Shown: one piece after another, positions 41,492-46,218 of the stretch
Position numbering within the stretch: the first letter of the stretch is position 1
How the letters are laid out: each line of letters begins with the position of its first letter
DNA from: Clostridiales bacterium
GTDB lineage: Bacteria; Bacillota; Clostridia; Saccharofermentanales; Saccharofermentanaceae
Direction: 5' to 3'
Assembly: GCA_017551625.1 (NCBI GenBank)
Contig: JAFZLF010000005.1
Location: forward strand, 124,001-188,000
DNA length: 64,000 bases
Program-made: the position numbers and the translations under genes
The notes under the pieces: generated by a model
Databases searched by the model: none
Seen by the model: only the letters and a program-made list of their open reading frames with translations
What the model was told of the DNA's origin: nothing

Positions 41492-43339
41492 TCAACCCTC
41501 AGATGGCGCTTCCGCGTCCTGCGCGTCTTCAGAAGGAGCCGGTGTTTCAGACGAACTATCCGACGAAGCGCTCTCGGGCTCAGAAGAATCAGACGTTTCT
41601 GAGGTATTCTCGGTCGATTCCGATGTCACCTCCGATGTGGATTCCGATGTGGACTCCGATGTAGATTCCGATGTAGATTCCGAGGTGGATTCTGAAGGTT
41701 CCGTACTGCTTTCCGAGGTCTCTTCACTCGAGGTCTCTTCGCTTTCCGTCGTCTCATCAGTTGATTCTTCAGAATCTATCACGTCGGGAGTCGTCTCCGG
41801 TGGTTCTGTATCAACGATCTGTTCAGAAGTCGGAACCGGAGTCGGATCGTAGAAATCTGTTGTCATCGTCTCATCTTTGGTCGGATCCTCATCAGAAAGC
41901 ATCTCCAGCGGAACATATCCCATCAGTCCATTTTCCTTCTTCACCTTAGCAAAGCTTTCGTTAGCGGCCAGAAGAGTCACCGCTTCACCGCGCGAGAGGG
42001 TGTCAATGACCTGACTGTCCAGAGATTCCTCCACAAACAGGGAAGTCTCATCAAAGAGCGCATAGACGACCCTGCCGGCATTCTCCTCATCTTTATCCTT
42101 TTTCGTTTCGGTAGGGATAGACTTGAGGTTTCCTGTCCAGTGCCCTGCGTTAAAGAGCACATACATGCCGCCATATCCGATAAGCCCGCAGATCAGGAAA
42201 ATCAGAAAACCTATAAGGATACTCTTCCAGACAGCGTTCTTCTTACCGTTCTTCTCCTTCTTTTCTTTCTTGGAGGCCTTCGGAGCGGCCTCAAAGAGTT
42301 CATCTTCGTCATCGTCAAAATTCTCATCATCTTCGGGAACGGTACTCTGAGAGACTGCCTGATTTACCTGATAACATAACTCTTCCGATTGGATCGTCGG
42401 GGCATCCTCAGCGGAAACAGGCGGCGGAGGAGGTACAGGAGCAACCGGTGTTGCTTCAGGGGCGACAGGCTTCGGGGCAACCGACAGATCATTCGTGACC
42501 GCTGCCTGACCTATATCCGCATCTCCCGGAAGAAGGAGCGTACTTTCAATCCTCACGACAAGTGCCGTAAGACCTGACCTGACACCATTGTCCATGGCAT
42601 ACTGGATCATCTCCGTCGCTTTCGTTTCAGGTTGTGTGGGACGTGCGATAACGACACCGAGTTTCTGGATCGGAAGCCCCTGATCCAATCCCGTACCGAT
42701 CATCACGATCTCATCGCCATCCTGAAGTTTCAGATGGACCTTCTTATCCGGAAGTACTTCTCCATCCTGTGCAAAGCGTCCCAGATACTGTGTAAGCTCA
42801 TTACGGCCTTCATGGTGGTATTCTTCCTCTTTGGGGATCGCTCCCATCTGAACATAACGATGTGCCACCGTCTGATTCTCCGTCAGCGAAATCAGTTTCC
42901 CCTGTCTGAACAGCCAGACCCGCGTATTTCCGATATTCAGCACACGAAGCGTATCACCCTCGATGATGACCATCGACATGGAAACACGGATCTTGGCACC
43001 GTTATGGCTGATCGATTCATGGCATACCGTATTGTTGAGAACATTGACCAGCTGAGACGTGAAGCTCTCATAATCTAGCACACTCATAAGTTGCGTCTGC
43101 GCGGTCAGTTCCCGCATTTTCTCCAGGACTTTCTGCAATGTCATGGCAGAAAGTGTATCTTCTCCCTGCGCAGATAAACAGGCGCAGATCTGAATAGGCG
43201 CTGTCGATTTCGCGGAACGTACATACGATGAAGCAAACTCTTCCGGAACACGGAAAAGACTGTGGAAGAATACATTTTCCTGGTTTTGGCCCTGTATCTG
43301 GTTGGTCTCACAGACGACCGCGGACGATGTCTTACTCAT
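41492..43339 (-). CDS. Degenerate PP2C-fold protein with membrane helix, SH3-like domain and Ser/Glu/Thr stalk
   Basis: 615 aa. Residues about 15-265 align by eye with PP2C phosphatases such as PrpC: L-N-I-G-N-T-R-V-W-L matches H-I-G-D-S-R-C-Y-L, and N-E-L-T-Q-Y-L-G matches the K-A-L-G region. The metal-binding acids are replaced. The D-G-M-G-G block is C-L-S-A-Q-G, S-D-G is G-T-G (215-217), and E-D-N is R-S-G (254-256). A Pro/Ala linker, a membrane helix (373-396) and an SH3-like domain (422-482) follow. The tail is Ser/Thr/Glu-rich, with 12-bp DNA repeats encoding S-T-S-E. It overlaps the LCP gene by ATGA. It probably senses or scaffolds rather than dephosphorylates. Confidence 0.7.
   Translation of the reverse strand: MSKTSSAVVCETNQIQGQNQENVFFHSLFRVPEEFASSYVRSAKSTAPIQICACLSAQGEDTLSAMTLQKVLEKMRELTAQTQLMSVLDYESFTSQLVNVLNNTVCHESISHNGAKIRVSMSMVIIEGDTLRVLNIGNTRVWLFRQGKLISLTENQTVAHRYVQMGAIPKEEEYHHEGRNELTQYLGRFAQDGEVLPDKKVHLKLQDGDEIVMIGTGLDQGLPIQKLGVVIARPTQPETKATEMIQYAMDNGVRSGLTALVVRIESTLLLPGDADIGQAAVTNDLSVAPKPVAPEATPVAPVPPPPPVSAEDAPTIQSEELCYQVNQAVSQSTVPEDDENFDDDEDELFEAAPKASKKEKKEKNGKKNAVWKSILIGFLIFLICGLIGYGGMYVLFNAGHWTGNLKSIPTETKKDKDEENAGRVVYALFDETSLFVEESLDSQVIDTLSRGEAVTLLAANESFAKVKKENGLMGYVPLEMLSDEDPTKDETMTTDFYDPTPVPTSEQIVDTEPPETTPDVIDSEESTDETTESEETSSEETSESSTEPSESTSESTSESTSESTSESTSEVTSESTENTSETSDSSEPESASSDSSSETPAPSEDAQDAEAPSEG
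41615..41699 (-). repeat. 12-bp tandem repeat encoding Ser-Thr-Ser-Glu
   Basis: About seven imperfect units of GATTCCGATGTG type (plus-strand reading), all multiples of 12 so the frame is kept, inside the tail of the PP2C-fold protein. Copy number could vary by slippage without breaking the gene. Confidence 0.85.
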
Positions 43340-44460
43340 GATTCTTCCTCCCAGATAAAACGATGCAGATCCTCAAGCTGCCTGTCCCAATCGACATGCA
43401 TGATCCACGGATCTTCCTGAACAGTAAACATTCCATCTGCAGGAGCACGGTACTGCTTTACTTCATCGAGTACTTCCATAGCCGAGATCGCGATACGCAT
43501 CATATCCATCGCGTTCATATTCGTCTCGAACATCCCGGCCGAATCCTCGAGAAGCGCGGTCTGTTCCAGTCTGCCATAAGAAGCGACCTTATTAATCAAT
43601 GCCAGAGCCAGAGTTCTCTGTCTGCTCGTACGTACATAATCCGAGTCCAGATAACGGATACGGGACCAGGATGTCGCCTGTACACCATTTAATGTCTGAA
43701 GTCCTTCGTGTTCGAGAAGCGGCACATCGCGTCCGAGAAGGATATTTTCCTGTGAAATCAGCTTATTGGCATATTTGACTTCGCCGGCAGAAACCTCAAT
43801 ATCAACACCGCCGACAAGATCGATCAGATTGGATGAACTGCCGAAATCGAGCATTACGAAGCGCTGGATATCGAGGCCGTAGTTCTCATTGATCGTGTTG
43901 ATAAGCAGACCGACACCACCATATGCATATGAGTGGGTAAGTTTATCCGTCTCGGACCTTCCTTCGATCTTAACACCGGTATCACGCATCAGGGAGATCA
44001 TCTTCAGGCAATCATGACGATGGTCGATGGACACGATCAGAAGGGCGTCAGCGCGGCAATGCACATCATCCGTGCCTCGGGAATCAATACCAAAAACAAG
44101 GATGTTCTCGACCTTACTGTCCTTTTGAGCTACTTTCTTGATAGGATACTTCTGGTTAACATAGACCTTGGTATGTCCGCCGGCATCCCATGAGGAGGTT
44201 ACATCACCGGAACTTAGATCAATATTGTCCAGGTCATCAAAATCGATCGTCTCATACTGCGCTTTATTGACAAAAGGAGTATTCACGAATCCGACAGACC
44301 CCATAAGTTTATAAACATAGAGCACCACGCCGGATCCCAGCCCCAGCACGGCACATAATATATAACATAGGATACGGATCACGATCCGCACCTTTGATTT
44401 ATTCTGCCGGCGTTCACTTCTGCTGCCGTCAGAACGACTATCTATCGTATTAGAAGACAT
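43336..44460 (-). CDS. LytR-CpsA-Psr (LCP) family cell-wall polymer ligase
   Basis: 374 aa: a short basic cytoplasmic part, one membrane helix (V-I-R-I-L-C-Y-I-L-C-A-V-L-G-L-G) and an extracytoplasmic LCP domain. The domain has N-I-L-V-F-G-I-D-S-R, R-A-D-A-L-L-I-V-S-I-D, S-L-M-R-D-T, K-L-T-H-S-Y-A-Y-G-G and R-I-R-Y-L-D-S-D-Y-V-R-T-S-R-Q. LCP enzymes attach teichoic acids or capsule polymers to peptidoglycan using lipid-linked donors; the Arg and Asp residues bind the pyrophosphate lipid. It overlaps the PP2C-fold gene by ATGA and has a good promoter. Confidence 0.92.
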   Translation of the reverse strand: MSSNTIDSRSDGSRSERRQNKSKVRIVIRILCYILCAVLGLGSGVVLYVYKLMGSVGFVNTPFVNKAQYETIDFDDLDNIDLSSGDVTSSWDAGGHTKVYVNQKYPIKKVAQKDSKVENILVFGIDSRGTDDVHCRADALLIVSIDHRHDCLKMISLMRDTGVKIEGRSETDKLTHSYAYGGVGLLINTINENYGLDIQRFVMLDFGSSSNLIDLVGGVDIEVSAGEVKYANKLISQENILLGRDVPLLEHEGLQTLNGVQATSWSRIRYLDSDYVRTSRQRTLALALINKVASYGRLEQTALLEDSAGMFETNMNAMDMMRIAISAMEVLDEVKQYRAPADGMFTVQEDPWIMHVDWDRQLEDLHRFIWEEES

Positions 44461-44582: not shown

Positions 44583-45791
44583 ATGAAACAGAAACTCATC
44601 AGGTTTACAGCTATTACGGCATCCGTCATCTTGATGGCTGCACCTTTATCAGCATGCGGGAAGAAAGCTCCCGAATCCATAAGTTACGAGACATGGTGGA
44701 CATCAGACGCCACAAACGATTCCAGCCAGACATCGGCGTCCGAATCACAAGGAGATACGACCCCGTCAGAGACAACTGAGTATATTATCCCCACACCATC
44801 CGACGTGGTTGAAAATCCTCTCACCGGACTTGTCGAGATGGATATCAACAATGTTGGCAAGCGTGGTGCCGCTGTATCCGTTAACAACGCCCGAGCAGCC
44901 AATCCTTCCAGAGGGACCAGCGATGCTTCCGTGATTTTCGAATACGAAACAGAAGGCGGACAGACCAGGATGCTCTGTGTCTACGAGGACATTTCCAAGA
45001 TCCCGCTGATTGGTTCCATCCGCAGCGGACGAGTCGGATCAGCTGACATGGCCGCCGGTACGGGTGCGATCTTCTTCTCATGGGGCGCCGATCCAACTGC
45101 AGTTCCTGCACATGTTAGAAACAACAATATCTCATGGGTCGATCTGAACAGAAACATCTTCGAATATGGCAAGGGCCATGATGCAGGCGATGTTTCCGGC
45201 AATTGCTTCTGCTGGTATGACCGCGAGTGGAAATCACAGCGCGCTCAGGAGCACTGCGGTGTCTCGAGAGGTGATTTTCTTGTCAAAGCCGTGGAGTATA
45301 ACAATATCGACATCAATGGCGAGATGCCCAGATTATTCCACTTTGTCGAATCCGGAACGGCCAAGATGACCGACAGCGTCAATTGTTCAGAAGTATCGGT
45401 ATACTTCTCCTCTACAAATGACGACGCGCTCTTCGTCTACAATCCGGAAGAATGTGTGTATTATAAGAGTCAGTATGAAGGACAGCCGCAGATGGATATC
45501 AATAACGACACACAGATCCATTTTACAAATGTATTCGTTCTCTACTGCCCGATCAATCTCCGTCCGGGCGATACCAGCTCCGAACACCATGTCGATATCC
45601 ATATGGAAGAAGGCGGAACCGGTTACTATATTTCCTATGGCAAGGCTGAGGCGATCACATGGACCAAGCCGACTCCCAATGATCTGATCAAGTGCTATGA
45701 CAAGAACGGCAACGAGATCGAGGTTAACGCAGGCAAATCTTACATCTGTGTCGTTGATGATGACGAGATCAGTAAGTTAACGATGAATTGA
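44583..45791 (+). CDS. DUF3048 (YerB-like) lipoprotein
   Basis: 402-aa lipoprotein: signal peptide with lipobox L-S-A-C (Cys25), a Ser/Thr/Glu linker, then a DUF3048 domain. Its markers are N-P-L-T-G-L, R-G-A-A-V-S-V-N-N, S-D-A-S-V-I-F-E-Y-E-T-E-G-G and I-G-S-I-R-S-G-R. The family, including B. subtilis YerB, is widespread in Firmicutes and its activity is unknown. It is anchored outside the cell. ATG 44583 follows AAGGAGAG. A symmetric terminator follows. It is divergent from the LCP operon, suggesting a shared cell-envelope setting. Confidence 0.88.
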   Translation: MKQKLIRFTAITASVILMAAPLSACGKKAPESISYETWWTSDATNDSSQTSASESQGDTTPSETTEYIIPTPSDVVENPLTGLVEMDINNVGKRGAAVSVNNARAANPSRGTSDASVIFEYETEGGQTRMLCVYEDISKIPLIGSIRSGRVGSADMAAGTGAIFFSWGADPTAVPAHVRNNNISWVDLNRNIFEYGKGHDAGDVSGNCFCWYDREWKSQRAQEHCGVSRGDFLVKAVEYNNIDINGEMPRLFHFVESGTAKMTDSVNCSEVSVYFSSTNDDALFVYNPEECVYYKSQYEGQPQMDINNDTQIHFTNVFVLYCPINLRPGDTSSEHHVDIHMEEGGTGYYISYGKAEAITWTKPTPNDLIKCYDKNGNEIEVNAGKSYICVVDDDEISKLTMN

Positions 45792-45861: not shown

Positions 45862-46218
45862 TCATTTCAAAAGGCTCGTGATTTCCTGATAAGTGAGCGG
45901 ACGGATGAGCAGCTCGTCTTTTGTCTCATCTTCTCTAAACGGATCTAAGGCTTTAAGTGCTTTTTCATAGGGAATCTCACCGATTATTTTCTTATCGGTA
46001 GAACTGATCAGGACCAGCACAAATCGTGAGGTCTCTTCGTAATACTCCGAAGGTTTCTTCAGCAGTCTCGTCATCACGCCCTCATTCAGGGCAAAGCCAC
46101 CGGCAGGATCACCGTTCCCATCTATCATGAAAGAATATGCAGGAACATAAGCACGCTGCCATACCGGAGAATCGCTCTTCTCACGGTCTTTCTCTTTTTT
46201 CTTGTCAAATATCCCCAT
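45862..46218 (-). CDS. Conserved small protein of unknown function
   Basis: 118 aa without membrane segments or signal peptide. It has a Lys/Glu-rich N-terminus (M-G-I-F-D-K-K-K-E-K) and a body with P-A-G-G-F-A-L-N-E-G-V, F-V-L-V-L-I-S-S and I-I-G-E-I-P-Y-E-K-A. The style is like small clostridial hypothetical proteins, but I do not recognise a named family. It is 1 nt from the VanZ-like gene, so it is co-transcribed, and it ends at a bidirectional terminator. Confidence 0.65.
   Translation of the reverse strand: MGIFDKKKEKDREKSDSPVWQRAYVPAYSFMIDGNGDPAGGFALNEGVMTRLLKKPSEYYEETSRFVLVLISSTDKKIIGEIPYEKALKALDPFREDETKDELLIRPLTYQEITSLLK

Follow-up and report, generated by a model that had tools for sequence, protein, structure and literature searches.

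The window analysed here is a stretch of 64,000 nucleotides from a genome of the Saccharofermentanaceae, a family called f1 in the comparisons; a second representative of the same genus (L053, Ca. Scatonaster) is placed in this family by NCBI. At positions 41492–44460, the minus strand carries a pair of genes, and both open reading frames lie where an earlier note on this DNA had placed them; the strand was left unstated there. The upstream gene (43336–44460) encodes a LytR-CpsA-Psr (LCP) glycopolymer transferase of 374 amino acids. It matches Pfam PF03816 with an E-value of 8e-31 (107.7 bits, cut-off 24.6), and the conserved Arg/Asp motifs of the LCP family are present (RADALLI, MRDT and RIRYLDSDYVRTSRQ). 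Its stop codon overlaps the ATG start of the second gene at 43336–43339, which indeed reads ATGA on the minus strand. The second gene (41492–43339) codes for a protein of 615 amino acids, a predicted transmembrane PP2C pseudophosphatase according to its Stp1/PrpC-like sequence, motif comparison and an AF2 model.

All parts of this protein are encoded on the minus strand. Sequence matches and the model indicate a PP2C-fold domain with replaced core catalytic aspartates in residues 1–266 (42542–43339), followed by a linker rich in Pro, acidic residues and Lys (residues 267–366, 42242–42541). Hydropathy revealed a single membrane helix at about residues 369–387 (42179–42235), present in 87 of 90 relatives. 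Beyond it lie a putative SH3-like domain at about residues 424–487 (41879–42070) and a Ser/Glu/Thr-rich tail (residues 491–615 plus stop, 41492–41869) with 34 S, 28 E and 24 T in 125 residues. The topology, read from hydropathy alone, would place the PP2C domain and the linker in the cytoplasm and the SH3-like domain and the tail outside. The helix and the stalk described in the earlier note were thus recovered. For the SH3-like domain, a small beta-barrel was predicted (best Foldseek E 0.0024, with SH3 domains filling most of the list) and the domain is present in 86–87 of 90 relatives, but the match to Pfam SH3_3 stays under the cut-off (22.7 versus 27 bits).

A divergent gene on the plus strand (44583–45791) encodes a YerB-like DUF3048 lipoprotein and adjoins the pair in many relatives. 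The gene order TsaD-SmpB-VanZ-DUF3048-LCP-PP2C is common to several genera, and SmpB-DUF3048-LCP-PP2C also occurs in a locus of the sister family f3 (L084). A gene for a protein of 118 amino acids (45862–46218) had no family match over the cut-off. Its place between VanZ and DUF3048 is kept in the genus of the window; none was seen in the other genera examined. A role of the locus in antiphage defence was rejected after a PADLOC search gave no hit.

Fold and active site of the PP2C domain

The NCBIfam model for Stp1/IreP (NF033484) matches residues 62–262 with an E-value of 2e-18. The score of 66.7 bits is under the curated cut-off of 230, and a Pfam search gave no match of the protein to the Pfam PP2C models. 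The closest solved relative by sequence is Stp1 of S. agalactiae (PDB:2pk0, E 3.5e-12). A profile of the protein and its intact relatives matched tPphA (PDB:2j82) at residues 49–264 with an E-value of 1.5e-40. An AF2 model was built from 17 close relatives (pLDDT 60.5, pTM 0.66); it is weak at residues 11–43, with pLDDT below 50 around motif 1. The comparison of the model with Stp1, PstP, PppA and tPphA yielded Z-scores of 20–21 across 201–212 residues (21.3 for Stp1 2pk0, 21.2 for PstP 1txo), and 17.8 for the pseudophosphatase TAB1 (2pop). The predicted structure therefore has PP2C likeness, as the earlier note had proposed, and the model assigns a PP2C fold to the cytoplasmic domain.

The active site differs from that of intact relatives in every motif compared. 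NED of motif 1 is QEN (Q20-E21-N22, invariant residues), with Glu21 in the Asp column. DGMGG is S56-A-Q-G-E, GDSR is GNTR, SDG is GTG (T216) and KDN is RSG (S255). In an alignment of 90 Saccharofermentanaceae family members, the Asp of DGxGG was present in 0/90, that of SDG in 1/89 (only L065), that of DN in 0/88 and that of GDSR in 0/90. The motif-1 Asp was also absent (0/90), being Glu in all 90 members. The phosphate-binding Arg before the NED motif (position 16) is Q16 in the window protein and was kept in one of the 90. The former ligand positions 216 (L, T, V, I) and 255 (S, A, Y, F) vary freely, as would be expected after a loss of metal binding. From these replacements, a PP2C-type binuclear metal centre should be unable to form, and the protein is predicted to be a catalytically dead pseudophosphatase. 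The replacements read from the window sequence in the earlier note, including GNTR, were borne out and extend to the relatives. Its statement that all metal-binding acids were lost holds for the core metal aspartates and is slightly overstated, because the motif-1 acid persists as an invariant Glu.

Selection and ancestry

Full-length pseudophosphatase genes were found in 101 of 115 family genomes; most of the 14 genomes without it are incomplete. Comparisons of close relatives gave a dN/dS of 0.03–0.10 for the PP2C domain, with similar values for the LCP gene; because many pairs approach saturation of dS, the closest pair (L036: dN 0.053, dS 1.57) is the most reliable. When 22 former active-site columns were fixed from the PP2C motifs and invariance was set at 97% or more, 11/22 of these columns were invariant compared with 29/243 elsewhere (Fisher p 5e-5). 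The new signature comprises S56, G59, D61, G215, G217 and G256. Invariant positions are kept in five genera, and the frame is open in all complete loci. The linker evolves faster and the tail is poorly conserved. The pseudophosphatase is under strong purifying selection, and its former active site is newly invariant.

Two sister families in the same order, f3 and f4, encode related membrane PP2Cs, adjacent to LCP in 10 of 12 loci examined. In the f4 proteins, the motifs are intact and a membrane helix lies close to the C-terminus. In f3, three proteins (L083, L084, L181) kept the three core aspartates and two (L075, L078) lost one of them. The latter two, both LCP-linked, are half-way forms with CNG or SNS for SDG and DGMGE for DGMGG; they have a Thr/Pro outer tail without an SH3-like domain. 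In the phylogenetic tree, the pseudophosphatases group in a single clade (100/100), whose long branch measures 1.69 changes per site. The clade is sister to the LCP-linked f3 proteins (97/91) and then to the LCP-linked f4 proteins (90/84), and so nested among relatives with intact motifs, whose activity is inferred from these motifs. The phylogeny points to a single origin, a membrane PP2C of this order that was linked to LCP. Given the single clade, its f3 and f4 sisters and the shared locus order, the simplest reading is therefore one catalytic loss on the f1 stem, accompanied by acquisition of the SH3-like domain. One order thus holds the complete series: LCP-linked PP2Cs with intact sites, forms with partial degradation, and a clade with a fully dead site that persists in about 100 species of this family of gut and rumen bacteria.

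Other families of the class also encode related PP2Cs, as a class-wide profile search showed. In one clade, from f18, f69 and f73 (L119, L121, L162–L166, L168–L171), the sites are degraded and a single membrane helix is followed by a long outer tail rich in Pro, Thr and Glu. NED and DGMGG are changed to NSN and EGFGA or similar, SDG is lost and there is no LCP neighbour. This group apparently represents an independent loss. A lone degenerate PP2C (L173; DNMER, TNG, EDN) on a long branch has a membrane helix, a tail of 116 amino acids and no LCP neighbour. Within the sample, an outer tail of at least 116 amino acids was present in 19/19 degenerate members, and one of at least 60 amino acids in 5/30 intact ones. 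The tree of the sampled PP2Cs needs four catalytic losses. The link between catalytic loss and outer tail is suggestive; it is not significant, because the independent events are few (about four). It is conceivable, and here advanced tentatively, that membrane PP2Cs of Clostridia turned on several occasions, about four within the sample, into dead transmembrane receptors with an outer domain or stalk. If true, bacterial envelope signalling would include a recurrent and undescribed class of proteins, the transmembrane pseudophosphatases, as a counterpart to the PASTA kinases.

Association with the LCP gene

Adjacent LCP and pseudophosphatase genes were found in 68 of 90 loci, always with a gap of −14 to +30 nt. 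Two of the 22 unpaired loci have too little contig to tell. The other 20 are clear cases, in genomes without an orthologous LCP (best matches of 25–29% identity or none), compared with 50–58% identity of the orthologous LCP in paired genomes. The pairing that the earlier note wished to see in relatives is thus common and not universal. On the tree, the LCP gene was lost about four times independently while the pseudophosphatase stayed, and no LCP of any kind was detected in two genomes with this history (94% and 98% complete). The LCP enzyme is a common but dispensable partner of the pseudophosphatase, because of these losses and of the two genomes without any LCP. In the genomes G034, G054 and G102 (94–98% complete), no protein passed the family cut-off for an LCP domain. 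After loss of LCP, the DUF3048 gene lies directly upstream of the pseudophosphatase and co-directional with it in L035, L123, L124, L126, L129 and L154.

Outside the order, an LCP-PP2C pairing was observed in 0/20 class-level PP2C loci, a sample that is not exhaustive for the class, and in none of the further loci examined. Within this sample, the pairing is not supported as a general clostridial feature.

Proposed role and comparison with known systems

The catalytic site was lost and the gene preserved; therefore, the present job should be binding or signalling, not catalysis. The preferred reading, with a probability of roughly 0.6, is a non-enzymatic transmembrane link between cytoplasm and wall made from a dead PP2C phosphatase. 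The conserved protein is probably a wall-to-cytoplasm scaffold or receptor. On the outside, the SH3-like domain and the tail may touch the wall or one of its proteins. In the cytoplasm, the PP2C domain may bind a partner, its fold serving as a module for binding and conformational change, as it does in RssB, TAB1 and PHLPP2. In this way, the protein could position or gate envelope machinery, of which the co-transcribed LCP enzyme would often be a part. LCP cannot be the sole client, because the gene is also retained where LCP is missing. Candidate cytoplasmic partners are the PASTA kinase and the canonical, intact PrpC encoded elsewhere in the same genome. The presence of both rules out a replacement of the canonical phosphatase. 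The genome encodes another PP2C-like protein of 392 amino acids (L001, G000:C16:242056-242694), with a membrane helix at its very C-terminus. Of the proteins of this genome, it matches PP2C_2 best (E 4e-37).

A more specific alternative, close to the proposal of the earlier note, is that the pseudophosphatase mainly binds and controls the co-transcribed LCP enzyme. It agrees with the translational coupling in 68/90 loci, with the pairing in f3 and f4 and with known activators of LCP enzymes, such as the transmembrane CapA1 of S. aureus, which enhances LcpC (PMC6441080). None of the 14 family genomes without the pseudophosphatase keeps the orthologous LCP, but missing contigs could explain this co-absence, because the two genes are adjacent and many of these MAGs are incomplete. 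The repeated loss of LCP from loci that retained the pseudophosphatase, including two nearly complete genomes with no LCP detected, argues against a dedicated regulator. The cytoplasmic tail of LCP, where a PP2C on that side of the membrane would most obviously act, is not supported as a conserved target either: it varies among relatives and has about 9 residues in the linked loci L080 and L081. Such exclusive control of LCP is unlikely. Of the earlier interpretation, the usual operon and the family-wide conserved pseudophosphatase with its predicted cytoplasmic and outer parts stand, and the observation itself was confirmed; LCP as the dedicated control target is weakened.

The kinase and PrpC pair would also allow the dead domain to trap phosphoproteins of the PASTA kinase and to shield them from PrpC or compete with it. 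PHLPP2 may retain substrate binding after its catalytic loss (PMC12002173). The phosphate-contacting Arg was kept in only 1/90 members, and the phosphate-holding metals cannot be coordinated in the PP2C manner; although binding might use another surface, a trap or protector is rather improbable. An enzyme with an altered metal site, using Glu21, Asp61 or other acids, finds some support in the invariance of both residues (90/90) and in the single metal ion kept by PHLPP2 and TAB1. Set against this are the free variation of the former ligands 216 and 255 and the inactivity of the single-metal PHLPP2 (PMC12002173), which make remaining catalysis very improbable. The lost active site and the absence of the gene from 14/115 family genomes might indicate a gene on its way out. 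Such decay is ruled out for practical purposes by the dN/dS values of 0.03–0.10, and it disagrees with open frames in all complete loci and with positions kept over five genera.

Among PP2C pseudophosphatases, the protein stands out because it spans the membrane, ends a clean evolutionary series and shares an operon with a wall-polymer transferase. Descriptions of bacterial pseudophosphatases are scarce. In a literature text search, RssB was the only clear example of a bacterial PP2C pseudophosphatase found, and the passages of a bacterial PP2C survey reached by a term search included none on pseudophosphatases (PMC12088040). Text searches also found no publication joining LytR, PP2C, operon and SH3, or Saccharofermentans, LytR and phosphatase. 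The series makes it testable what the PP2C fold does after catalysis is lost, and also if a direct link across the membrane ties Ser/Thr signalling to the attachment of wall polymers.

Several known systems share features with the locus. The upstream gene is a member of the LytR-CpsA-Psr transferases, for which a pairing with PP2C is undescribed as far as searched. Stp1, PrpC and PstP (NF033484; 2pk0, 1txo, 2j82) have the same fold and sequence likeness over residues 62–262. In contrast to them, the window protein is without the core metal aspartates and the phosphate Arg and has an outer SH3-like domain and tail, and its gene adjoins LCP, not a PASTA kinase. RssB is soluble, whereas the window protein is anchored in the membrane and belongs to the Stp1 type, not to the SpoIIE type. 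PstP is also a transmembrane PP2C, according to passages of the bacterial PP2C survey (PMC12088040). RssB, a PP2C-fold pseudoenzyme that acts as a protease adaptor, shares the non-catalytic regulatory use of the bacterial fold, and TAB1 is a further case of non-catalytic use (PMC5468089). CapA/CpsC activators of LCP and capsule enzymes are also transmembrane proteins that act next to an LCP enzyme; their domains are unrelated to the window protein and CapA1 is itself a phosphodiesterase (PMC6441080). TAB1 and PHLPP2 have a dead PP2C domain with a scaffolding role, as proposed for the window protein. PHLPP2 lost its activity in one ancient event, like the window clade, and is a proposed scaffold at membranes (PMC12002173). 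Both are eukaryotic and keep one metal ion, whereas the window protein replaces more of the ligands and spans the membrane.
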